Both the position numbers and the translations under genes were made by a program. This document shows, one piece after another, positions 1 to 63,225 of a DNA stretch of 64,000 nt (within the stretch, counting starts at the first letter, position 1; each line of letters begins with the position of its first letter). A model generated the notes under the pieces. It was given only the letters and a program-made list of their open reading frames with translations, did no database searches and was not told where the DNA came from. Source of the DNA: Cymbidium sinense (lineage: Eukaryota; Streptophyta; Magnoliopsida; Asparagales; Orchidaceae); contig CM038225.1 of the NCBI GenBank assembly GCA_021442155.1, forward strand, positions 81,852,925-81,916,924, read 5' to 3'.

Positions 1-1150
1 AACTTTGAGTATGCTAGATGAAGTTCCAAAAATATGTTTTTTTGAAAAGTTTTGAATTTTTGATTTGGAAACTTTACTTAACAAAGTTAGGTATGTTAAA
101 TAAAGTTCCAAATATTGTTTGAAAATTTTGAATTTTGGATTTGGAGATTTCACTTAAAAAATTTGGGTATGTTAAGTAAGGTTCCAAAATGTGTTTTTGA
201 AAATTTTGAAATTTTAGGATTTGGAGACTTCACTTAATAAATTTGGGTATGTTAAGCAAGGTTCTAAAATGTGTTTTGAAAATTTTTGAATATAGATTTG
301 GAAACTTAACAAATTTGGTATGTTAAATGAAGTTCCAAATGTATTTAGAAAATTATGAAATTTTGAATTTGGAAACTTTACTTAACAAATTTGGGTATGT
401 TAAATGAAGTTTCAAATGTGTTTAGAATTTTGAAAATTTTTGGATTTTGATTTTGAAACTTTTACTAGCAAATTTCCATTATGATATGAATGTTAAATGG
501 GTTTGAATCTTTTTGAAGTTTCAAATGTGTTTAGAATTTTGAAAATTTTTGGATTTTGATTTTGAAACTTTACTTAGCAAATTTTATTATGATAAGTGAA
601 ATTCCAAATTTGTGTTTGAATTTTTTTTTGAAATATGATTGTTGATTTTAATTTTGAAAAGAGGACCTCCATTCAACAAATTTAAGTATGTAGAATAGAG
701 ATTGATATTTTTGAAATGTGAAATTTTTATGCGTGATTTTTGCTTTTTGAAAGAGAGGAAATCCAACTTAAAACATATGTGATATATGTTTAAGTAGGAT
801 TTCCTAAATGATATTTTATTTTTAGTTGGGAATGAAATCTTCATCTAATAAATTTAAATTTATTAAATGAAGTTATTCATGTGTGCTTTTTGAAAATTTT
901 TGATTTTGTTTACAAATGAACTTTCCATTCAATAAGTGTGAATGTATTGAATAGAAAAATTCATGTGTGCTTTTTGAGAATTTTTATTGTGGTTATGATT
1001 TTTGGAAAACATGATTGTTCATTTTGTTTTGAAAATGAAATCTTCATCAAAGTGAATTGAAAGAATATGTTCATTTATGCTTCTGGAAAATGTTATTAAT
1101 TTTATTTTTAAAAATTCCTACATGTAACAATTATGTTAACTGTTAAATGA
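1..1150 (-). repeat. Leader hairpin-repeat array of Tat/Ogre-like element A
   Basis: Degenerate tandem units of about 60-80 bp fill the stretch. Read on the minus strand they match the array at 56890-58800. Each unit has two inverted arms around a loop resembling ATACCAAATTT. Clear examples are 757-778 with 784-804 (one mismatch and one bulge), 839-852 with 859-872 (one mismatch) and 922-934 with 945-957 (one mismatch). Arm sequences differ between units but still pair. The array lies on the internal side of the primer binding site at about 1557-1574, so it belongs to the 5' leader of an element that continues past the left edge of the window. No coding potential is visible. Confidence 0.8.
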
Positions 1151-1556
1151 GGGTGAAGAAATTTTGTGGAAAATATTTTATTAAGTGCATTTTTGAAAAA
1201 TGTGCTTTTGAGAAAGCAGAGTTCTTTATGGAAGTTTTATTATTTTTAGGATGAACCTTTCCTTATCATGAAGATGATAAGGGGGAAGTCTTTAAGATGT
1301 TTCTTTTTATATTTCGGATCTTTTCATTTTACCCATTGGAGTAACCCAATGGGGGTTTTTAAGGAAGAATTCCTAAAACCTAAAGATGTTGGCTAACTCA
1401 ATGAAATGAGCAAAGTGTCAATGGAAAGAAGGATAGTCTTTGATTCATACCAAAGTACAAACCCATCATCGATACTCAAAGATAATGATCATTTACCAAA
1501 GATGGAGAGAGGAACCATCCCCAGCAGAGTTGCCAGAAAAATCTGTGATGAAAAAT
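1151..1556 (-). mobile_element. Leader of element A next to the primer binding site
   Basis: Untranslated leader between the hairpin array and the primer binding site. It contains an inverted repeat around 1335-1355 (CCCATTGG with CCAATGGG). The corresponding part of element E, just downstream of its primer binding site, has a similar CCCCCAATAGG motif near 56553. Short open frames at 1406-1651 show no recognisable domain and are not considered genes. Confidence 0.6.
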
Positions 1557-27367: not shown

Positions 27368-28803
27368 ACCGCACCGGCCTCTTATTCTTTTATGCTAGTT
27401 TTATAAAATTGTTTGATGTTGTGTTTATTTTGTGCATTAGAAATGGCATGCCTTTTCATAATTTCTTAAATTATTGATGCTTTAATGTGTGGCCTAGATA
27501 TGATTATGCTCTTAGAAAAAAATTAATTTTTCCTACCCCAATTAATCACTTATAACTAAATTTTAAATAATTAATAACCTCACCATAAAGCTTAGGAATT
27601 AAATAAGATAGTTAAAAGATTTAACAACCGCTTAACTGAATGTTGTATGCCTCACATCGTGCATACATATTTCTTCTTCGTTGAATTTGGGGGATCTTCA
27701 TCCTTGTACGATAGGGGAATGCTTGACCTATGAGGGTATCCCTTGTGGTAGAGAATAATCTCTTCTAGTCAATTTGGCCAATAATCCATTTCATCATGCA
27801 TTTAGTCATATAAAAATCCTAAAGCCTTGTCAAAATAAAGTGTCAAAATTTAAATAAAATTTGAAAATATTTTGCATTATATTATGTCATTATTCATACC
27901 ACTCATACTCTAGTCTCTTAAGGAGTGGTTTAAGGACTTTAGTCCCTTTCTAAATAAATAATAGCCCAATTATCTTGCAAATTCATAAGACTTGCCTACA
28001 TAGATTTAAATTGTGGGAGGAGTTAGCTAGCACCACTCCATGCGATAAGTCCAACTGTTGGGTGGTTTATGCTCTCTTGTGAAGGTAAACCTCATGCCCA
28101 TCTTTGCTTAGATTTAGGTCATACTTTAGCTTATGCTAAAGTACTCTAGATTTAGAAACTGAGGTAGTTGTTTCTTTTAGGGTACAAGCATATAAGTCCT
28201 TACCTCTTAAGCATTTTCATGATCATGTGTTGCTGGATTATAAGCTCTAGCAATCTAATAAATTTCAACTCAAACAAAATAATTCTCTTCACTTTCAAAC
28301 ATATAAAGCCCAACCATATGATATATTGGAATGCTCACTAGGTTTCTTAGTATCATGAGCATTTCTTACTTATTTCAATTGGATTCTAAAAATAATTCTC
28401 CTTGAAGCTTCCCAATTGATTTTCCAAATATAAACAATCCTTTGATAGTCTAACCTTAAAATATTTGGAGATGATGATTATCTACTTTAATCGAGAGTAT
28501 TCTTAAGGAATTTCATTCCTTAAGATGTAATTAACTATGGAGGCTTGCCTCCATAGGAAACTTTATAACCTGGTTTAATATAAACTCTATTTCATTCATC
28601 CATGTAAAGTAGGAGAAAAATCTCTAGTATATTCAAAGACCCATCATACCTTAGGAGTCCTTATTAGGTGATTAGGTTCATTGAAGGGTAACGTCTCTAT
28701 CTTTCAAGATAGTACATCATACCTCAATGTCGTACCAAATCACTTCAATGAGTAGCCTTTATAATATGGGTGGTGTCCCCCACATCAAAAAATAAACACC
28801 ACA

Positions 28804-34565: not shown

Positions 34566-35681
34566 ATGGCACTGATTATGGGAAAGCTCTCGTTGCTGCC
34601 TCTCCTGCTCATTGGGGTATTGGTTGCCGACACGTTGGGGTCCCGAATTTTACCCGGCGAAACATTGTCGATGGTGCAGCGCCACGAACAGTGGATGGCG
34701 CAGCAAGGGAGAGTGTATGAAAATGCAGCAGAGAAGGCGCTGCGGTTCGAAATCTTCAACACCAACATGGAGCACATAGAGAGCTTCAATGCCGAGAAGC
34801 ACAAATACTGGCTCCGCCCCAATCAGTTCACAGACTTGACCAATGAGGAATTCAAGGCTATTTACGCCTCCGGATTCAAGCACTCCACCTCATTTCGTCC
34901 AGCACCGACCAAGTTCAGGTATGAGAATGTATCGGCAGCCACAGCAAACCTAGATTGGAGAACCAAGGGAGCCGTCACTCCAATAAAGGATCAAGGCCAA
35001 TGCGGTGAGAATTCATCCCCTTGCATGACATCGAAGACTATATATATAAATATATGCAATTAAACAGCAATTGTATGACAAGCAGGGGCATGCTGGGCTT
35101 TCTCGTCGGTGGCGGCTACGGAGGGTATCAACCAGATTAAGAATGGGAAGCTAGTTTCCCTCTCGGAGCAGGAGCTCATTGATTGCGATGTGACAGAACA
35201 GAACCAGGGCTGCAACGGGGGCGTCATGGATGATGCCTTTCAATTCATCATCGACAATGGCGGCATCAACACCGAGATCAACTACCCATACGAGGCAGCC
35301 GATGGTTCATGTAACTCCAACAAGAAGTCCATCAGCGCCGTCAAGATCTCCGGCTTTGAGGACGTTCCGGCTAACAGCGAAGCATCACTGCTAAAAGCTG
35401 TCTCAGTTCAGCCAGTCTCTGTGGCCATCGATGGAGGAGATCCCAACTTCAGGCACTACGCAGGTGGCATCTTCACCGGCCCCTGTGACACCGATCTTGA
35501 CCATGCGGTGACCGCCATCGGCTACGGCATCGACACAGATGGGACGAAATACTGGCTGGTGAAAAACTCATGGGGTACTACTTGGGGTGACAATGGCTAC
35601 ATCAAGATGCAGAGAAACATTGATGCGGCTGAAGGACTTTGTGGAATTGCCATGCAGGCTTCCTACCCTACAATTAATTAA
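34566..35681 (+). CDS. Papain-type (C1A) cysteine protease, SAG39-like, two exons
   Basis: Exon 1 is 34566-35004 and exon 2 35086-35681; the 81-bp intron (35005-35085, GTGAGA...GCAG) splits the Gly codon of the active-site loop, a usual intron position for this subfamily. The product has 344 residues, a normal length. Residues 1-25 are a hydrophobic signal peptide. The I29 inhibitor propeptide spans about 38-95 with the ERFNIN signature (E56, R60, F64, N67, I71, N75). The mature domain starts near 125 (LDWR at 129-132). The oxyanion Gln143, catalytic Cys149 (QCGACWAF), His286 and Asn307 (NSWG) are all present, as is GCNGG. N121-V-S is a possible N-glycosylation site. It should hydrolyse proteins in the vacuole or apoplast after propeptide removal; the family is often linked to senescence and defence. 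Oddity: the Gly of the GNFD motif is Arg84. No stops or frameshifts; it looks functional. Confidence 0.93.
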
Positions 35682-48729: not shown

Positions 48730-49539
48730 TGTTGACCTCACTTTTGGAGTGAGCTCTTAACCTCCTCTTCTTAGACTTAGGACTCTTATAGACACTAAGA
48801 ACTCCTTAGTCATAAGACACTTCTAGTGATTAGGTGAACACTTAACCTAAGCCAAGAGATTTAGAAGTGTTAATCATAAGATAAGGCTATGCCTTAGGAC
48901 TGAAGGAAATTACCTATCTCATAGCGTAAATCTAATCTAGATACACCTTCTCAAATCAAACCCAGATTCAATTCTCAAGCCAAATCTCAAATTGAAATTC
49001 AAATTCCAAATTTAATTTCAAATTTGACTCCAAATGATTGAAACCCAAAATCAAATTCAAATCCTAAGACCCTTCTTAAGCCATATGAACCACATTCATA
49101 AGCTTAGCCAAAACTCCCCTTAGATCAAATCAAACTCAATTGATCTCTTTATAAATCAATTATTCCTTCATTTATATTCATAAATATAAATGAAATCCAA
49201 ATTCAAATGGCCAAAACTATATCGAAAATCAAATCCAAACTCAATCTAAGCCCTTTAAGCCAATTCTTTGGACTTAGCCAAATTCTATCCAAATCAAGTC
49301 AAAAACTAATGAATTTTCTTTTGAATCAATAATTCATTCAATTATCTACCCAAATATAAATGAAACAGACAATCATTAAATCAAATCGAAACCAACCCAA
49401 GTCAAATCCAACCTTGCCCTTTTGACTTGAAAATTTCAAATGAGCCAAAATCCCTTGAACTCCAAATTGATTGTAGTTGAATTTATATTTAAATCTAGAG
49501 ACACATATATAAGTTTAGTTAAACTCAAATCAAACTAAA

Positions 49540-50060
49540 ACTAAACCAATTGACCCACTTAGGTCCACTTGACCCAAAGTAACCTAAAGGACCCATTTGA
49601 GCTAACTTTTGATCCAACCCAAATTGGATTAAACCAAGATCACCAAAATCTTCCACCGTGATTGTTGATCACCCTAGGATGATCAATTCCAATCAATTGG
49701 GCCAAACCAAGCCCAATTGGCCATTTGGTTCACTTGACCCAAATTGGCCTATAGGACCAAATCGTCAAATCCTGCTCTAACCCAATTTGATTGTAACCAA
49801 TGGCTTAAGTTCATTCCAAATTGATTATTCAACTTGACCAAAGCCATAATTAAATCTAATTTGATCAATCGAGCCCAATTGGTCAACTTGACCCAAAATT
49901 GGCCTAAAGGGTCAATTTGGCCTAAATTCAAATTAAATCCAAATTAATTCAAACTGATTCATTTTTAGTCAATTGAACATGAATCAACCCATGGCCCAAG
50001 CTAATTTGGCCAATTTTGGTCAAATTGGTCAATTTGACCCAATATGGCCCATATGACCCA
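49540..50060 (+). promoter_or_regulatory. W-box-like cluster in U3 of LTR E
   Basis: At least ten TTGACC or GGTCAA motifs within about 520 bp, 350-900 bp upstream of the TATA box. A WRKY-binding function is inferred. Confidence 0.5.
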
Positions 50061-50404
50061 AATTGGGCCAAATCCCATAAAACCAAGCCATGACCCATTG
50101 GGGGCTGATCAAACCCAACCCAAACCCATTTGAGATCAGCCCAAAATCAACCCAACCTATTTAAATCTCTCATGGATCCTCCCCATAGGATTCCACCCAA
50201 CCTCATTTAATTCTCCCCCATCACATGCACTTAACTCCTCCCCAATATTTGCATTGAATTGAGCTAATCATATGGTAGCAAGAGAGGACTTTGGAGCAAA
50301 AATCTAAAGTTCTCAATCAATCCATCATCCATCCCAACCACTCCAAGCAAGATGACAATCAATTTGGAGCCAAATAATTTAGAAAAGAATGTATTTTTGA
50401 CCAT

Positions 50405-50413
50405 TATAAAAGG
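50405..50413 (+). promoter_or_regulatory. TATA box of LTR E
   Basis: TATAAAAGG, followed by GAGGGGAAATGAGG and a pyrimidine-rich CTTCACCCCTCTTCCCC about 30 bp downstream, where transcription would start. This would place the U3/R boundary near 50435-50445, making U3 about 1.7 kb. Confidence 0.65.
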
Positions 50414-51096
50414 AGGGGAAATGAGGCTTCACCCCTCTTCCCCACCACCATTCAGCCCCCAAAAGCTCTCCAAATAAAAAAAGGAACCCATCCCTCACCT
50501 TTTTGAGCCATTTTTGAGCCATTTTTGAGTCCCAAAAATACAAATAGTTGCTTTTCGGTAAACATCAGAGAAGACGATGTTCCGAAGGGAAGCAATGGTT
50601 AAAGATAATTCCGAAGCTTTCTCAGACACCTAGGAGTTCACTCGGATCTTCACTATTGCCAAAAACCATCCTCGGCGAGGTAAATTTCGCCAAACTTTAG
50701 CTGGCCTTAGAATTTCTCACATTTTGTGTTAATTTTCTTGCAATTTTAGGAATTTCTCCTAGATAATCCCGTATTTTTACTTTAAATCATCCTAATTAAA
50801 AATAGAATTTTTTGGTGTGAATTGATGTGAAAATGAGTCCATTTGGACAAGTTTTGGCTTAGACTCTCATTTTAAAAAAAACTATTTTTTTCGTTCAACG
50901 CTGGCTACGGCCGTCGATCCGCGGTTCCGCTTGGATGGGTCAAATCATGCAATTTGGGCCTTTGCATCACTTGATGCAATCTGGACCGTCCGATTGCATG
51001 GTTTGCACGATCAGATGGCTCAAATCAAGTGTTGATCGTGCGATCCTGGCCTCTCGATCGAGCGATCCTTGCCGATGGCTCGAGCGATCTGATCCA

Positions 51097-51123
51097 GACC
51101 ATCCGATCTATGATCGGATGGTC
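51097..51123 (+). repeat. H1 hairpin of LTR E
   Basis: GACCATCCGATC (51097-51108), loop TAT, GATCGGATGGTC (51112-51123): a perfect 12-bp stem. Further CGATC/GATCG and TTGATGCAA-type palindromes surround it at 50960-51090. Confidence 0.9.
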
Positions 51124-52589
51124 CAGAGCGAGCCACGAATCACTTTTTGTGGGTTGACTTGTCTTCCCGCCCAACGCTGACGCCGCACTGTGCATGAATC
51201 GGATTTCCCGATTTAAAAATTAATTTAAATCACCTAAAATTTTAAAAATTCATAAAAAAATGAAATACTTAACCAAAAATAACAAACAAGGGCTTGTTGG
51301 ATTTGTCTTTACGAGAGAATTTTGAGAAACCAAAAATCATTAACTTTTACTAAGTACATTGAGCTTAATTTGAGTTTTAGGGATAATTAAATTTCATTAA
51401 TTAAACCAAAACTATATGTCAGATTAAGTTGAAATTTTCAAGTTTTAAAGTTAATGTTAAAACACACCTACCATATAAATTTCAAGTGAAAATCACTTCT
51501 AGATTAGGAGAAATTAAATTTTGAAATTCAGATTATCCATTTTAATAAAATGAATTAAATAAAAATTCAGAAATTTACAAAAATCTTCAAAATGGCTTAA
51601 ATCAGTTCAATTGACATCTAGGAATCTCAAGAAAATAATGTGATTTTTGTGAATCCTAATGAACCCCAAACAAACACTTGAGATTAAAGTTTAATCAATT
51701 AAGGAGTTAATTAAAACATAATATAAAAAAAATTTAAATATCAAATCAAAATCTTAAATGAAATAACAATTAAGCAATCATTAATCAAACCTCAAATTAG
51801 AAAAATATCATCCTTAGAGGAAATTAAATTAAATATGATTTAAGCTAATAAAACTCAATTAAATGATTAAATCTTAAATCAAACTTAAAACTAAACAAAT
51901 CCAGGAAACTTTAGCATGGGTGATCCCAGTATAACTAAACCTACACTAAGCATAAAATCTTAATCATATGAAACCCCTTAATGAGTTTAAATAAACTGAA
52001 ACTAATTAATCATTAAATAAACTAAAAAAATCAAATTGATTAATAAACCAATATAACATAATCATTTAATACTAATCAAATTAAACCAAATAAAGTTAAA
52101 GTAAACTTAATTAACATATGATTAAATCACATCCATTTGGAATAAGATAATTAATTAACCATTAAATATTTCAACCTAATAACTAAATCAAATATGTTAA
52201 TGAAATCAAACAAACAAAATAAATGAATTAAATCAAATAAAACTCTAATTAGAAATAATCAAACTTAATTGAAATGAAATAAATAATTAATTCACTTAAT
52301 AATAATGATGGTAATAACAATAATCCTTTAATAAAATCAAACTTAAGTAAAACACTTAACTAAATCAAACCACTCACATGTGGGTAATTAAGTCATTAAT
52401 CTTTAATTAAATAAACCCTTAATTAATCTAATGATTTAAAAATTTAATTACCCTTAATCAAACTTAATTAGTCAAACATCTAATTAATGAAAACTTAATG
52501 AATTAATCCATCATCTTAATTAATCAAATTAATTTAAAATAAGTTACACTAAAGATTATAAATTTTATCAAACCCTAATTAAATTTAAT

Positions 52590-53335
52590 AATCATCACAC
52601 AAGTAAGCTAATTAAGTTAATCAAATTAATCATATTATTAAACTTAATCAAACATAATCAAAATGTAATTAAATACTAATCAAAACCTAAATTAAACTTA
52701 AATCATTTCATTAATTAATTCATCATTGTTAAATAAATCTTTATATAATTTAATAATTAACAACACTTAATTAAAATTAAGCTAATCCAATTGAATAAAC
52801 ACCTAATTACAAACTTAATAAATTAATCCACCATCTTAATAAACCAAATTAACTTTATAAATTAGATTAAAATTAATTCAAATCAAACACTTAATTAATC
52901 TACTAATTAATTTGATCACATCTTAAGTAAACTAATTAAAGTCAATCAAATTAATCATATTAAACTTAAACTTAATCAAACATAAATGCAATTAAATACC
53001 AATCAATTCTTAATTTAAACTTAAATCATTAAGTCATTAATCATATCATTAACCTAAACAAATATGAAATCAAATAAAAAAATTAAACAAAGTTTTATTT
53101 AATTTAATAATTGATTAGACCTCTTAAATAAGCTAATTAAGTTAATCAAATTAACCATATTAAACTTAAGCTTAATTAAACATAAATTTGAACATAATCA
53201 AAATGCAATTAAATACTAATCAAAACTTAAATTAAACTTAAATTATTAAGTCATTAATTACATCATTGATCTAAACAAATATAAAATCAAATTAAAAAAT
53301 TAAATAAATCTTTATAATTAACATAAATACACTTC
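52590..53335 (+). repeat. Three tandem units of about 200 bp in LTR E
   Basis: Units begin near 52600, 52930 and 53130 with AAGCTAATTAAGTTAATCAA or a variant. They share CATATTAAACTTAA, CAAACATAA, AATTAAATAC[C/T]AATCAA and TAAACTTAAATCATT. Divergence is moderate. Confidence 0.7.
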
Positions 53336-53739
53336 TTAATTAAACTAATTACATAATCATATTGAACCTAAGCAAACCCGTTGTCTAATAAAGCTAATCA
53401 AATTAAATTAATCAAATAAATTAAATTAAGAAAGACTCTCATCAATTTAATATGCAATCAAATCAAATCTCATTCAACCTACTTAAATAAGATATACTAC
53501 TTAACAATCCAATGTATGAAATCAAAATGCAAACCAAACTTTAATAAACATGACAAATGGATGGGATTAAAAGATAAAATCCTAATTATAAGGAATCAAA
53601 CTCAATTAAAATTAAAATAAAATCTCAATTAATCAAATCTGATCAAACTATAAATGAATGAACCATAATCAAATCAAATAAACATAAAGTCAAGTCACAT
53701 AACCATAATCAAAGAAAAGAATTAAATATTAATTTAAAG

Positions 53740-53930
53740 GATATTGAATTATCAATATTTAATTAAACCAAAACATCTAATTTGAAATTAATCAATCAAA
53801 AATACATGAATTTAAACAAACTTAAACTTCATTAAATATCAAAGATATTGAATTATCAAGATGTAATTAAACCAAAACATCTAAATCAAAATCACATAAA
53901 CCAAAACATCTAAATCAAAATCAATCAATC
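53740..53930 (+). repeat. Short direct repeats in LTR E
   Basis: GATATTGAATTATCAA followed by TTAATTAAACCAAAACATCT occurs at about 53740 and 53843, and CCAAAACATCTAAATCAAAA occurs twice near 53871-53920. Confidence 0.75.
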
Positions 53931-54843
53931 AAATACTTAAACCAACTCAAATTCTAAGCTCTAAGACATATCAAATAAATCAAATAAAAAATGTTACACA
54001 AATTTAAATGGGCTAGTTAAGATACTTAAGGACCTTAGTTAGATTCTTTAGGAATTAGGATCTAGAATAGGATGAGTTCCATCTACAATTAGAATTCATT
54101 CTACTCTTCATTCTTGAAAACCTAAATATCATTTTAACCAAATAAAAGTAAAATAAAAATTAAAAATAAATGATTTAAATTGAAATCACCCAAAGGTAAA
54201 ATTTAAACAAATTCAAACTCCAAATTGAAACTTAAATTAAAGAAGCTAGTAAAGTCTTATCACACAAGCCTTAAGCACACATATTAGAATACTAAGTCAC
54301 CACTTATAGTTCTAAGTTAGGGCATTGTATGTATGATGTTGTATTTTATTTTATGATATAATATTTTAGACTAGATGTTAGGATGTATGTTTCGTAGACT
54401 GGATGTTAGGACATTACTAGCCTAATCATGTTTTATGCAGAGGGTTGTGCTTAAGGGGCCGCTGTAATAAAAATATAAATACGTTTGATGTGCAAGTTGC
54501 TTAGTCCCTGAGCATAACTAACATTAGGACAGGTGGGCTTGGTTACCCATGTGTGGGGTGCTAAGTCCAAATTAATCATATAACTGCTTAGGTTGTATAG
54601 TATGTTTAACTAACATTTGTTTTGCAGGTGTAGCTAGATTTATTTTTCCTATTTTTGATATAATCTTGCATTAGGAAATAGGATTAGTGTTATGGGGGAT
54701 TAAAATGAGCAATGGCCAGAAGGCTTAGTCCCTGTGGTGCCCTATGATGCCTTTGGAGCAAATCAAATCAAAAGAAAGAGAATGAAGAAATAAAGAAAAA
54801 AGACCCCCATAGCATATATTTTTTTTTAATCTGAGTTGTATAA

Positions 54844-54862
54844 GGGTAGAGCTTGGCTACCC
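54844..54862 (+). repeat. Conserved GGGTAG/CTACCC hairpin of LTR E
   Basis: GGGTAG (54844-54849), loop AGCTTGG, CTACCC (54857-54862). It has the same arms and loop pattern as in LTRs A and C. Confidence 0.75.
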
Positions 54863-56344
54863 ATCTTTTTTTCTCTTTTCGAGGTGTACAGTAAAACCTG
54901 ACCGCACTAGCCTTTTATTCTTTTGTCATAGTCTATAAAATTATTTGATGTTGTGTTTAGATTGCGCATTAGAATATCATGCTTTTCATAGTTTCTTTAT
55001 GATTGATAATGGCATTCTGATGCGATAGGCTCTTAGGATAAAATTAACTTTTTTACCCTAATTAATAACTCATAACTAAAATTTTAAAAGAACTCATAAC
55101 CTCACATAAAAGCCTATGAATTAAATCAAGATAATAAAATTTTCAGCAACCCCTTAGCTGGATGAATGAATGTATAATATCATGCATGTCATATTATTCC
55201 ACTCTTGTTAAGAGGGGCTTCCATCTTTGCCAGAGAATGAAGGCTTAACCTATGAGAGCCTTTGATGGAGGAACACCCCTTTCTCTCTTGATTTGGTTCA
55301 TAGTCAAGTTCTCATGCATTTAGGCATACAAAATCCCATAGCCTGTGTCAAAATAAAGAGTTCAAAAGAATCAAATAAATTTGATAAAATTTGCATTAGA
55401 TTAAGTCATGAATTCATACCACCCATGCTCTAGTCTCTTAGGGAGTGAGTTTAAGGACTTAATCTCCTTTCTAAATAAATAACAGCCTAGCCATCTTGCA
55501 AAGCATAAGACTTATCTACATGGATTTAAAGCGTAGGATGAGTTAGTTGGCAACCACTCCAGGTGGCTGTAAGTCTAACAGTCAGGTGGTTCATCCTCTC
55601 TTGTGGAGGTGAATCAAATACCCACTTTTTGCTTAGACTTATGTCGTGTCATTATTTTGTACCATGGCTCCTTAGTTTAGGAATGTTAGGTAGCTATTTT
55701 CTTGGGCTACAAGCATAAATCCTCACCTCTTAGGTATTTCCATAATCTTATGTTGTGGAATTATAAGCCCTAGCAATCTAATAAAATGTCAACTCAAATA
55801 ATTAACTCTCTTAAAATTTCAATAAAAAATATAAAGCCAAATTATAGGGTATATTGGAATGCTCACTATGCTTCCTAGTATCATGAGAATTTCCTACTTT
55901 CCCCCTTTGGATTCCAAAAATAAGTCTTCTCCTTGATCTATCCCATTTGATTTTCTAAAATAGCCATCCTTTGATAGTCTTAACCTTGAAATCTTTGGAG
56001 ACCCTAATTGTCTACTTTAATCAAGAGTATTCTTATGGAATTTCCATTCCTTAGGATGTAATTAACTATGGTGGCTTGCCTCCATAGGAAACTTAACAAA
56101 CCTATTTTAAAAGTAAACCCTACTTTACTCTTCCATGTAAAGTAGGGAAAAGATCTCTGTTATATTCGAAGACCCATCGTGCCTTAGGAGTCATTATTAG
56201 GTGATTAGGTCCATTATAAGGTGGTGATTTCTATCTTTCGAGATAGTACATCATTCCTTAATGTCGTACTCGATCACTTCAATAAGTACCCCCTAAGATC
56301 TACGTGGTGTTTCACATCTCAAAAATAAACACCACAGATTTTTT

Positions 56345-56362
56345 TGGCGACTCCGCTAGGGA
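56345..56362 (+). other. tRNA-Arg-type primer binding site of element E
   Basis: TGGCGACTCCGCTAGGGA begins 8 bp after the LTR end and starts with TGG, complementary to the CCA tail of a tRNA. The same TGGCGACTC...GGGGA-type site is used by Ogre/Tat elements, where it is assigned to tRNA-Arg. This fixes the LTR boundary and the plus orientation. Confidence 0.9.
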
Positions 56363-56889
56363 TGGTTCCTCTCTCCATCTTTAGTAGACAATCATTGTCT
56401 CCAAACATCAATAGTGGACTTATATTTTATATAGGCCCAAGGCTATCATTCTTTCTGTTGGCACTTAGCTTATTTCATCCTTAAGCAAAGCTCGACAACT
56501 TCCTTTAAGTTTTAGGACCTTACTTCGTGTAGGTCTTAAAATTCCTATTAGATTCCCCCAATAGGTGAAAAATTAGAATTAATCAAACAAGGAGATGACC
56601 AAAATTAAGAACCTCTTCACCATCCTGATGGTGAGGCAAGGTTCATCCCATTTACAATAAGAAAATAAAGCTCTTCTACAAAATAACATGTCTTTATAAA
56701 AGCACTTTTTCAAAATCCACATAGTAAGAGATCTTTACACAAAAATTTGTAAAAAATTTTCAAAAAAGGCATAAAACACATATAACCAAACCTTGTTTAA
56801 CAAATCCTATGGGTTTTACATGGTGGTTCTTTTCAAATTCAAAATCAACCATTTTTAATGTCTTTTTCAAAAGCTCATTTTCTTTAGAA
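56363..56889 (+). mobile_element. Proximal leader of element E
   Basis: Untranslated leader between primer binding site and hairpin array, matching the leader of element A (about 1557-1150) only weakly. It contains CATCCTGATGGTGAGG and similar short palindromes (56621-56640). No coding frame. Confidence 0.55.
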
Positions 56890-58800
56890 ATAGCTATCTC
56901 CATCCCACGCACTCAAATTTGTTGGATGGAGATTCTATTTTTGAATTAAATTATAATATAAAATTGAAACTCCATTTAGCATACTTCACATGTGCTAGAG
57001 TTAAAGTTTTCCCCTTTTTTCGAAAAGCAATAAATCATACACACACAAAAGAGAAGTAAAGACATATTTGAACCCCACTGACATACCCAAATTTATCAAA
57101 TGGGAGTACCCCTTCCCTTGGAGAAGGTAAAGCAAATTGAATTCTATTTGATACTCTTTGCATTTGTCTAATAAAACTCCTTCTTGCCAAAGTCTTGGAC
57201 TTTAAAACACATTGGGAGCTCATTTGACATGCCCAAGTATGTCAAATGAGAATGTCCTTTTGAAAATCATAAAAACAAATTGAACTCCATTTAACATAAC
57301 TAAGTTTGTTAAATAAGTTCTTTTCTTTCAAAAATCATAAACACATTTGACTTTCACTTATCATACCAAATTTGTTAAGTGAGAGTTTTATTTTCAAAAA
57401 TCCATAAACACATTTGACTTTCACTTAACATACCAAATTTGTTAAGTGAGAATTTCATTTTAAAAAATCATAAACACATTTGACTTTCACTTAACATACC
57501 AAATTTGTTAAGTGAGAGTTTCATTTTCAAAATTCATAAACACACTTGACATTCACTTAACATACCAAATTCGTTAAGTGAGAGTTTCATTTTCAAAAAA
57601 ATTATAAACACATTTGACTTTCACTTAAAATACCAAATTTGTTAAGTGAGAGCTTCATTTTCAAAAAAATCATAAACACATTTCACTTTCACTTAACATA
57701 CCAAATTTGTTAAGTGAGAGTTTCATCTTCAAAATCATAAACACATTTGACTTTCACTTAACATACCAAATTTGTTAAGTGAGAGTTTCATTTTCAAAAA
57801 AATTATAAACACATTTGACTTTCACTTAACATACCAAATTTGTTAAGTGAGAGTTTCATCTTCAAAATCATAAACACATTTGACTTTCACTTAACATACC
57901 AAATTTGTTAAGTGAGAGTTTCATTTTCAAAATCGCAATCATATTTGACTTTCACATAACATACCAAATATGTTAAGTGAGAGTTTCATTTTCAAAAATC
58001 ATAAGCGCATTTGACTTTTGCTTAACATACCAAATTTGTTAAGAGAAAATTCCATTTTCAAAATCATAAACACATTTGACTTTCACTTAACATACCAAAA
58101 TTGTTAAGTGAGGGTCTCTTTTCAACACACATTTGATCCCTATTTTAACATATCAAATTTGTTAAATGAGAATCCAATTTTTCATGTCAAACCACACTTG
58201 AGCTTTCACTTAACATACCAAATTTGTTAAGTGAGAGTCTCATTCTCAAAAAAAAAAAAAAAAATAACATATCTCAAACACATTTGGGGCTTTCACTTTA
58301 CATACCAAATTTGTTAAGTTGGAATCTCATCTTCAAAGAAAAGCAATCTATCTCACAATCACATTTGACTTTCACTTAACCTACCAAATTTGTTAAGTGA
58401 AAGTCTCATTATCAAGCATAAATTATACACATGTGGCCTTTACTTAACATACCAAATTCGTTAAGTAATAAGCCCCATTTTCAAAATATCACACAATCGA
58501 ATCTTCACGAGCAAAAATATTTTAAGCACACAATCACAACCTCTTCTTAGCATACCCAAATTTCTAAAGTAGTGGTCTTTCAAACTATCAATATTTTGAA
58601 ACAAGATGCACAAAACACAAATATATCCAATAAAATCTCTCCTCAAATTTTTGAACCCCATCCAACTTACCTAAATTGGTTGAGTATGGGTTCAAAATTG
58701 AAATCAAATAGCAAAGATTCTCCTCAATATCCAAATCTCTCAAATGAACCCCACTTAACACATTTGAATCGTCGAGTGTGGGTTCAAAACTCCAAATTTT
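56890..58800 (+). repeat. Leader hairpin-repeat array of element E
   Basis: About 25 units of 55-90 bp. The typical unit has CACTTAACA, loop TACCAAATT, TGTTAAGTG, then a spacer rich in TTTCATTTTCAAAA and CATAAACACATTTGA. Stems vary between units and stay paired: ATCTCCATCC/GGATGGAGAT (56896-56905, 56924-56933), CTCATTTGACAT/ATGTCAAATGAG (57219-57230, 57239-57250), CACTTAACA/TGTTAAGTG (57422-57430, 57440-57448), GACTTTCACTTAAC/GTTAAGTGAAAGTC (58367-58380, 58392-58405) and TTACTTAAC/GTTAAGTAA (58440-58448, 58460-58468). It lies between the primer binding site and ORF1, so it would be in the 5' part of the genomic RNA. Confidence 0.9.
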
Positions 58801-58910
58801 TGTTACTTATGTGGAACAAATATCAAGGCAAAAATCTGATATAAGTTATATTTCCACCAATGCAGACATATAGCTTAGTTCAGCCAGAACAGTCTTTTTA
58901 GTTTTCATAC

Positions 58911-59640
58911 ATGGCAGCTCAGAAGTACGTGTTTACTTTTTCTTTCGAAATGGATTTGGCCTTGGATCGGGCTAGCCTCCCGTAGAATGACTTTGCCTAC
59001 CACATTCATTTTGGCCAAGATTTTGAGGGAGCTAGGATCACTTGTGAGGGGACCACCCTCACAACCGCCGAGAAGTGGGTAGAAGTCGCCATCTAGGTTG
59101 AGATGTCATCCACTGACTTCCTCACTAAGAGGAAGGCGTGGTTCCCATGTAGTGGTATTCTAGTGCACTTTGTGGTTTCCCTTTACCCCTACGAGCACCT
59201 ACTCCTTGGCTCCTTCCAAGGGGAAGGCTACTATCTTGGGATAGTCTCCCCACCCAGGTGTTGGGTCTAGTTCTCAGTGCCTTCGCAGTAGGACTGCAAA
59301 CCTGGTGCAAGATCAAGCGGCATCATGACCGCATAGCCAAGGAGCTAGAGGTAGTTTCCCAGTCTACAATAGAGGAGTTACCTAGGATAGTGTCTCCTCT
59401 TATCATAGAGAATAAGTTTCACCCCTCTCTGGTTCTGATGGAGAGGAAGACATTAGGAGGATCTCAGTTTCACCTCCACCTGCAGTTCATTTTGAGGCTC
59501 CTATCAGTGACAGGAGAAGGTCATATGCCAACCTTAGATCTATTCTGTGCTAAGTTGGTAGAGCTTACAAATGATCAAAGTTTGGGGCTCAATTTGATTT
59601 ATGTTTTATCATTCCTCATAGTTTAGACACATCGATAGAG
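58911..59640 (+). pseudogene. Decayed ORF1-like frame of element E
   Basis: The first long ATG frame after the leader starts at 58911 (MAAQKYVFTFSFEMDLALDR) and is interrupted by stops near 58983 and 59094. It continues with WFPCSGILVHFVVSLYPYEH to about 59260 and then shifts to the frame 59258-59626. Tat/Ogre elements carry an extra ORF of unknown function between the leader and gag, and this remnant is in that position. I do not recognise a domain in it. Base composition is much less AT-rich than the leader, consistent with former coding DNA. Confidence 0.5.
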
Positions 59641-61858: not shown

Positions 61859-62748
61859 CCTATCGAGTAATTCTTGGAGACTAATCCTAGATAAAGAAGG
61901 TTGGGATATTGCCTTACCCTGAACCTCTAAAATAGTGGTCTCTAAGATCAAGAAGCTTTCTTTATAGATGCCTGAAGTAACTCAAACCTCCAACAACAAG
62001 GAAGGTTTGCAAGTTGCCAAAGATAACTTGAAGAAAGTGTCAGCCTAGCAGCAGCAACAACCTACCTTACTTGCTCGGGATAGCACAACAACACAACCAC
62101 CGTCCGATCCCGACACTCCATCCACTGTTGCAACTACTATTTCTTCCTCCACTAGCACCTCTATTGTCAATAGAAGAATTTTATCAGTGGACAAGGGCAC
62201 TACACCCCTTACCCTGCTTACTTTATTAGATTTCTATCATATACCTCCATCTAAGAAGAAATAAATGGAGAAAGCTTTCACTTACTTCTTGTCCACTTCT
62301 AATACTCTAGATTTTATTCCTCTCAAAAACTCTCCAAGTCTACAAAATAATAATGATAACTCTAGTTCCGATCATTCTTCTTTTGAGAAATGGATTTTAA
62401 ATCACACAGTTCACCTCTTGAGATTGATTTGGAGTCATCCGACTCTGATGATCCTATAGGAGAAGTGGTAGGTACACCTGATGAGAAGGTAGAACTTCCT
62501 ACAAATTCATCATTCTAAGAGGTCACTGAAGTTAACCTTCGCAGTGGCAAAGTTTTACCTCCTAGGGTGGCACCTTAGGATAAGGGTACACAAATCATTG
62601 GTTCTAAAGAACAAATAGCCCCTCTATAGGATGCTCCACCCATGGATATGCATATGGAGGATCAAGTCAAGGTTGGCTACAATGTCCTAACACATCTTAG
62701 AAAATTGCCAAGTTAAGCATATATGATGCCCTTATCTTATCCAAAGAG
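61859..62748 (+). pseudogene. Linker region between Gag and protease of element E
   Basis: Ser/Thr/Pro-rich translation with stops (for example 62265-62459). Near 62520-62560 EVNLRSGKVLPPRVAP and near 62670-62745 VGYNVLTHLRKLPS, then a frameshift and YDALILSKEMRESLIKAL. These correspond to the linker motifs V.LRSG..L and YNVLAHLRKIPA..S.YDAL..S.E.R..LI.AL that precede the protease in Tat elements. Confidence 0.6.
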
Positions 62749-63225
62749 ATGAGAGAATCTCTAATCAAGGCTCTTCTTGATCCAGAGATATGCTTAGCCA
62801 AGTTGACCGCTACTGAGGAGGAAGCTCACAGTTTAGAGGACACTCTAGGAGTTACACTCGGTGATGAAGACTTGCTTCTACGAATGATCAAGCAAAACCA
62901 CCCTCTTTACATTATAGTGGATATTGGAAGCTATAGGATATCCAGAGTTCTTGTTGACCACGGTGCATCAGTGAATATTATGAGTCTAAAAACCCTCTCT
63001 TACTTGAGAATTGACATCTCCAAACTTTCAAAAGAGAGGATGATGTTGAGAGGATTCAATGAACAAGGCAAGAGGGCTTTAAGCTTTATAGTATTGCCAT
63101 TAGAAGTAGATGATTGGAAGACTACCACTAAGTTTCATATTATAGACTCAGATACATCTTTTAATGCTTTGCTTGGGAGACCATGGATACATGAAAATAA
63201 TGTGGTTCCATCCTCTCTACACTAG
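62749..63225 (+). pseudogene. Retroviral-type aspartic protease domain of element E
   Basis: An uninterrupted 158-codon frame. After SKEMRESLIKALLDPE (the frame opens upstream of the usual domain start) it has the active-site loop LVDHGASVNIM (about residues 66-76), where the usual D-[S/T]-G is D-H-G with the Asp kept. The hydrophobic region ALSFIVLPLEVDDWKTTTKFHIID and the conserved DTSFNALLGRPWIHENNVVPS end follow. It would cut the Gag-Pol polyprotein inside the particle. The frame stops at TAG 63226 just before the usual HQC/YKY segment, and downstream sequence is frameshifted, so the polyprotein is broken although the domain looks almost intact. Confidence 0.8.

Follow-up and report, generated by a model that had tools for sequence, protein, structure and literature searches.

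Covarying hairpins arrayed in tandem in the leader of a giant-LTR Ty3/gypsy-type retrotransposon of Cymbidium sinense

LTR retrotransposons fill much of many plant genomes, and the packaging and dimerization signals of these plant elements are, to our knowledge, little known. In retroviruses, dimerization of the genomic RNA involves the DIS, an element close to its 5' end. For Ty1, a role of PAL sequences in dimer formation and in protein binding was suggested (PMC4974528). Retand elements often feature family-specific tandem repeats in their non-coding internal part (PMC11963269, PMC6317226), which are located between pol and the 3' LTR (PMC11963269), and neither main text contains the word "hairpin". 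High-copy palindromic motifs in non-coding retrotransposon DNA are represented by the RMs of Sireviruses, which mostly have a CGG-CCG core and reside either in LTRs, 5' of the TATA box, or next to ENV (PMC2829016). Within the titles and abstract openings of the open-access literature, with subscription journals mostly uncovered, no report of a hairpin array in the leader of a plant retrotransposon was found.

The locus described here shares traits with all of these systems. Like the packaging and dimerization elements of retroviruses, Ty1 and Ty3 (DIS, PAL), it is structured, partly palindromic and placed near the 5' end of the genomic RNA; those systems possess a few unique elements, whereas the present one comprises some 15-30 units in tandem, in which the loop is conserved and the stems drift. 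With the Tat lineage (Ogre, Retand) it has in common that a large Ty3/gypsy element carries tandem repeats, but in contrast to Retand, the repeats lie between the primer binding site (PBS) and the first gene and their units are covarying hairpins. The Sirevirus RMs are likewise palindromic, while the present array has an AT-rich core and is found in the leader; an identity with these motifs was rejected, as a core of TTAACA...TGTTAA in the leader was found instead of a CGG-CCG core in the LTR.

The host of the array is a decayed Ty3/gypsy-type LTR retrotransposon with giant LTRs (family A) of about 28 kb in total, the first half of which (15 kb) lies in the window, i.e., the whole stretch of 64,000 nucleotides analysed here. 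Its parts are:

48730-56336, plus strand: 5' LTR (TG...CA), 7.6 kb, found by blastn against the downstream genome, with the ends read directly
C12:81923130-81929712, outside the window: 3' LTR, about 6.6 kb, found by blastn
56345-56362, plus strand: PBS, TGGCGACTCCGCTAGGGA, 8 bases past the LTR, read from the sequence
56363-58910, plus strand: leader from the PBS to the first candidate start codon, from the sequence and a fold of 56356-58911
58911-58985, plus strand: first candidate start codon past the array, with a frame ending after 24 codons, read by eye
62701-63222, plus strand: protease-like piece (Pfam Asp_protease_2 and RVP_2, E 0.0023 each, below the curated cut-offs)

A blastn comparison of the right end of the window with the next 20 kb revealed that 48730-56334 is collinear with L067:6206 to L068:2812 in five main pieces of 80-89% identity. 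TGTTGACC opens both LTRs, and their 3' ends read CACCACA (5' LTR, at 56336) and CACCA (3' LTR), so that two direct LTRs with TG...CA ends are present, as is typical of a Ty3/gypsy retrotransposon. GGAAAC flanks the element on either side and looks like a target-site duplication. The PBS at 56345-56362 is presumably similar to the complement of tRNA-Arg; its assignment relies on its position behind the 5' LTR and on recurrence, as PBS-like stretches are also found after the LTR end of families B and C, described below. In Ogre, the PBS is complementary to tRNA-Arg (PMC2206039). No tRNA gene was found within the 64-kb window. The copy is regarded as decayed because the frame from the ATG at 58911 stops after 24 codons. 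The coding direction of the element follows from the protease piece (62701-63222) and from the reverse transcriptase (RT) and RNase H pieces, which Pfam places downstream of the window in L067, with 29.3 bits for RVT_1 (just below the cut-off of 29.6) and 79.7 bits for RT_RNaseH_2. The gag and protease matches are weak and lie below the Pfam cut-offs, no integrase match was obtained in the open pieces searched, and, as a candidate for an additional RNase H (aRH), a weak RVT_3 match (E 0.18) was obtained after the first RNase H. A placement of family A in the Tat/Ogre lineage is plausible. The 5' LTR also features, at 52001-54000, an extremely AT-rich part (GC 0.18) with a C-over-G skew of -0.50 and short irregular TAATCAAAT-like repeats.

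Between the PBS (56345) and the first candidate start codon (58911) about 25 hairpins are arranged, the units of which have the core TTAACA...TGTTAA (near-invariant core TTAACATACCNAAATTTGTTAA) and a near-invariant loop, ATACC(N)AAATTT:

56896-56933, plus strand: PBS-proximal single hairpin, from the inverted-repeat scan, with a family B counterpart at about 650-710, minus strand
56968-57002, plus strand: single hairpin around CATACTTCACATGTG, with a family B counterpart at window positions 756-805, minus strand
57072-57107, plus strand: diverged hairpin unit, its local pairs missing from the minimum-energy fold
57205-58490, plus strand: tandem array of 19 hairpin units with a near-invariant loop and variable paired stems
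58545-58576, plus strand: diverged hairpin unit, its local pairs missing from the minimum-energy fold
58653-58693, plus strand: single hairpin with a GAACCC/GGGTTC outer stem, with matches to its stretch in all 28 family A copies
58746-58785, plus strand: single hairpin with a GAACCC/GGGTTC outer stem, with matches to its stretch in 21 of 28 A copies and all 6 long B leaders

The 19 array units are spaced 58-87 bp apart, mostly 65-68. A strict hairpin scan of 56336-58850 gave 21 hairpins versus a mean of 2.6 and a maximum of 6 in 100 dinucleotide shuffles, i.e., an approximately eight-fold density. The first-pass annotation of this DNA had described about 25 hairpins between the PBS and the first gene in the leader of a giant-LTR retrotransposon, which agrees with 25 centres counted by eye and 21 units of the family A copy found by a profile that was seeded from the window array and iterated on sequence only. 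Within the window, matches of this profile at E < 0.1 are confined to 57072-58767 and 71-691 and fall on either strand, as palindromes do. The five inverted repeats quoted in that annotation are present with perfect arms in the inverted-repeat scan, with lengths of 10 bp (56896-56933), 12 bp (57219-57250), 10 bp (57422-57448, within 57421-57449), 14 bp (58367-58405) and 9 bp (58440-58468). Its statement that the stems change between units while pairing is restored holds mainly for the units at both edges and for other copies and families; in the regular part (57326-58252), most units share one stem. Some units are not clean hairpins, as seven of the 25 retain two local pairs at most when the leader is folded to minimum energy (none at 57090, 57567, 57635, 58032 and 58560, one at 58307 and two at 58155). 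Upstream of many hairpins (57607-57643 and similar units), AACACATTTG can pair with CAAATTTGTT of the loop and 3' arm in 9 of 10 pairs; this alternative fold was set aside, as its four cross-loop column pairs are all missing from the 12 highest pairs listed by mutual information.

An array of the same kind is present at the left edge of the window:

1-1550, minus strand: leader, truncated at the window edge, of a second element related to family A (family B)

The family B LTR is about 69% identical to that of family A and the B hairpins extend to about 960, with the strict scan giving 7 hairpins in the minus-strand leader (1-1600) versus 2.5 in shuffles, a number that equals the shuffle maximum of 7 and is thus not clear by the scan alone. 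The whole genome (3.5 Gb, 2174 contigs) was searched for further copies, and 40 of 1874 first-look candidates for A and 40 of 8031 for B were scored, so that the copy numbers of both families are lower bounds. The resulting sample comprises 28 A copies (the window copy being L003) and 30 B copies (the window copy being L011). As the A copies were chosen with an array query, the presence of the array in them is uninformative; the B copies were chosen with a PBS-side query ending before the regular array, and all 30 contain at least four units at E < 0.05. The number of units per locus is 16-22 in eight A loci and 15-30 in six B leaders read further, and the single-hairpin stretches outside the regular array were matched in 21-28 of the 28 A and 29-30 of the 30 B copies. 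A third LTR type (window 28440-28803) led to 40 LTR copies in the genome. Ten stretches downstream of such copies were inspected, two of which (L073, L078) run into a PBS and a leader, both with the array (family C), while the other eight contained no unit at E < 0.01. Family C is 67% identical to A in the array and 80-83% on the PBS side. Its array starts about 400 bases past the LTR end, closer to the PBS than the regular array of A, and many of its units have a GAAC/GTTC outer stem. Relatives from the same genome, the inspection of which the first-pass annotation had proposed as a check, possess the array in families A, B and C. A search of IMG/VR with the exact loop-core pattern yielded two viral contigs (L001, L002) with one exact match each and without an array, and Rfam gave seven matches for 56000-59000 with E up to 5, none of them at the gathering score.

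The remainder of the window contains two pairs of long direct repeats, 18117-21001/24104-26982 (87% identical) and 28472-30702/30694-32891 (88% identical). The latter comprises an LTR end and about 1.9 kb of flank, as after a duplication, and the profile detected no hairpin units in this flank. A papain-family cysteine protease gene is located at 34566-35681 in two pieces (Pfam propeptide I29, then Peptidase_C1) and is likely a host gene between elements.

Covariation of the stem arms was analysed on 35 window units (33 distinct), the alignment of which was made without structure. In this set, 84.5% of the cells are paired compared to 76.9% after shuffling, 11 of the 13 stem pairs changed on both sides, and 45 paired cells carry a two-sided change versus 19.2 in shuffles (sd 3.6; 0 of 500), a number dropping to 9-16 if the partner is slid by 1-3 columns. 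From the genome, 965 units were aligned, of which eight were skipped (locus ends or missing anchor columns); 957 remained, 943 of them with a loop of 9 or 10, and 845 were distinct. The two arms of a unit form 10.53 of 13 pairs on average in 518 A units and 9.81 in 439 B units, whereas 3' arms shuffled within the same array form 9.79 (sd 0.038) and 8.66 (sd 0.057), respectively, which places cis pairing about 20 sd higher. In family C, 26 units from two copies show 7.23 of 10 pairs versus 6.10 after shuffling (sd 0.19; 0 of 2000); these were anchored by loop sequence only, since anchoring by maximal pairing is biased, and all 26 were counted, including three anchors with four mismatches each that look false and one that is shifted by a single base. 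When all 1540 column pairs were ranked by mutual information, the stem pair k=2 came first, together with high values for many neighbouring, indel-bearing flank columns, and the ranking was then restricted to the 576 cross-loop pairs. Among these, with A and B pooled, the stem pairs k=2, 7, 12, 11 and 3 occupy ranks 1, 2, 5, 6 and 7, the remaining 11 stem pairs range from 18 to 482 (k=0, 5, 10 and 13 at 177-482), and in A alone only k=2, 3 and 8 reach the top 7. By eye, paired changes are also visible between the single hairpins and their B counterparts, i.e., C-G to T-A at 56896-56933 and G-C to A-T at 56968-57002.

The least variable parts of the units are the core positions k=0, 3, 4 and 5 and most of the loop. 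This would also be expected if a plant DNA-binding protein recognized TTAACATACCNAAATTTGTTAA as a site of dyad symmetry and the repeats of this site formed an enhancer behind the LTR promoter, and dyad motifs are said to be typical of retrotransposon transcriptional activators (PMC2829016). Such a cis-regulatory array acting at the DNA level is considered unlikely, as the outer stem positions k=6-12 covary too and k=2 is found both as A-T (182) and as G-C (202) in the 439 B units.

The time at which compensation arose was addressed with a tree of the 845 distinct units, in which changes were permuted among branches with an equal parental pair. The 843 internal branches contain 12 compensatory double changes versus 1.3 expected (maximum of 5 in 1000 permutations), or 8 versus 1.25 without k=2, while the 845 terminal branches contain 7 versus 4.8 expected (P 0.19), alongside 528 one-sided changes. 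Non-partner control pairs on internal branches also gave an excess (5 versus 1.8, P 0.033), which means that part of the internal stem excess is an artefact of the tree; it is about nine-fold for stem pairs and under three-fold for non-partner pairs. In a cruder and weaker count of branch coincidences, k=2 is the single pair to stand out (P 0.0015, uncorrected for the 576 pairs); totals lie below expectation for stem pairs (37 versus 48.6) and, with a larger shortfall, for non-partner pairs (270 versus 477.7). Compensatory changes beyond phylogeny, as looked for in conserved structured RNA, are nevertheless present, and the two-sided stem changes exceed the shuffled, slid and non-partner controls, in accordance with the covariation proposed for the aligned units; the contrary outcome, stem columns without a compensatory surplus, did not occur. 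We infer that the changes on terminal branches are mostly decay after insertion. When copies of 11 hairpins were compared, conservation of both arms exceeded that of the flanks in only 6, with no clear difference, and such a slight conservation is as expected if most differences are decay.

As the compensatory excess is internal but not terminal, compensation belongs to replicating lineages and not to repair after insertion. DNA palindromes are known substrates for hairpin repair and duplication events, and correction of one arm by the other in the chromosome had been named as an alternative in the first-pass annotation. Chromosomal hairpin repair, or the simple tandem duplication of a palindrome with no force acting on its pairing, is nonetheless highly improbable, given that private changes lack a clear compensatory excess (7 versus 4.8, P 0.19, beside 528 one-sided changes) and that shuffled and trans arms pair less well. 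Correction of one arm by the other could also take place during reverse transcription, by template switching in a quasi-palindrome, without selection on RNA and only in the course of replication, for which an internal rather than terminal excess would be expected.

The units are palindromic, so that neutral decay should yield approximately equal numbers of G-U and A-C, whereas selection on the sense RNA should favour G-U. On terminal branches, 138 pairs were lost to G-U and 127 to A-C. On internal branches, the losses amount to 69, 67 and 65 (G-U) versus 85, 78 and 86 (A-C) for three tie-breaking orders, and new pairs arose 17, 10 and 11 times via G-U and 18, 16 and 17 times via A-C. Shared haplotypes over k=0-9 comprise 17 G-U versus 23 A-C in A and 29 versus 29 in B; over k=0-12 the numbers are 51 versus 27 in A, an excess mostly due to one T-G at k=10, and 37 versus 40 in B. 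Family C has 10 G-U versus 29 A-C. On the transcribed strand, a preference for G-U over A-C is thus absent in A and B (k=0-9, internal branches), and G-U is the rarer in C. As G-U is no commoner than A-C, the polarity test lends no support to RNA. The proposal of an RNA leader built as a chain of stem-loops is supported in part, in that hairpins covary beyond controls, also in relatives, but without the wobble preference. The missing preference would be expected if reverse transcription corrected any mismatch alike; since such correction predicts both this and the timing, it is the leading alternative explanation. It is still rather unlikely, because common non-Watson-Crick positions persist inside long stems (362 of 518 A units have T-G at k=10, and 163 of 439 B units have C-A at k=8), and because it leaves the near-invariant loop and the same position between PBS and first gene in three families unexplained.

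An argument for the sense strand comes from folding of the leader (56356-58911, 24 shuffles each), which resulted in a minimum free energy far below that of shuffled sequences, with z -15.9 for the sense and -6.7 for the antisense strand. The sense and antisense values are -19.2 and -9.9 for the array, -13.7 and -10.3 for the B leader, and -5.2 and -2.9 for the 5' part of the leader, while its 3' part shows no sense-strand excess (-2.1 versus -2.4); comparison folds gave -4.5 and -1.1 for an LTR piece and -2.0 and -2.0 for a piece past the leader. Single hairpins have a mean energy of -9.0 kcal/mol on the sense versus -7.6 on the other strand in A and of -7.5 versus -6.9 in B, an advantage which comes partly from U-G at k=10, and swapping of arms weakens them to -7.4 (A) and -5.5 kcal/mol (B). 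Across the 19 array units, the 13 best local pairs have a mean probability of 0.69. A chain of this kind might also act in translation, either by blocking scanning and thereby causing shunting or internal entry at the first gene, or by separating translated from packaged RNA. Array regions contain 4.9 (A) and 3.6 (B) AUGs per kb on the sense strand versus 44.5 and 30.7 on the antisense strand, and the window leader has 23 AUGs versus 32.4 after shuffling (P 0.02), with 8 versus 16.7 in the A array. A role as a translation device is nevertheless quite improbable, as the leader still contains 23 AUGs and that of B shows no depletion (21 versus 17.1 shuffled).

The loop hexamer AAATTT, which is self-complementary, occurs in 852 of 957 units, a conservation that is overstated because the profile favours units with a conserved loop. 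Based on this sequence, dimerization by kissing loops appears possible. A self-complementary loop is one property of dimerization sites; variation among palindromes, another one, was not found, as none of the 105 non-AAATTT hexamers is palindromic and DIS-like covariation of the loop is absent. The more specific idea of a multivalent array for packaging and dimerization, in which tens of tandem stem-loops capable of kissing would form a repeat-based packaging signal in the leader, free in copy number and with stems drifting under selection on pairing alone, is tentative and somewhat doubtful.

The chain of hairpins, its conserved loop, its place between the PBS and the first gene and the compensatory stem changes in the shared ancestry of the units are shown by the sequences; we infer RNA as the selected molecule and a role as a cis-signal in packaging or dimerization. 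In the preferred explanation, to which a probability of roughly 0.5 is assigned, the leader of the genomic RNA would fold into a chain of about 15-30 stem-loops, which selection on folding would have maintained as long as the element was active. The chain would represent a multivalent cis-signal on the unspliced genomic RNA, most likely serving Gag binding, packaging or dimerization. With so many equivalent units, no single one would be indispensable, in agreement with the looseness seen in individual stems.

Each copy contains many natural stem variants and the genome very many copies, so that the array constitutes a ready-made mutational experiment, in which structure, loop and copy number are separable by comparison alone. 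Moreover, it would be an example of tandem repeats in such elements that are more than neutral satellites.
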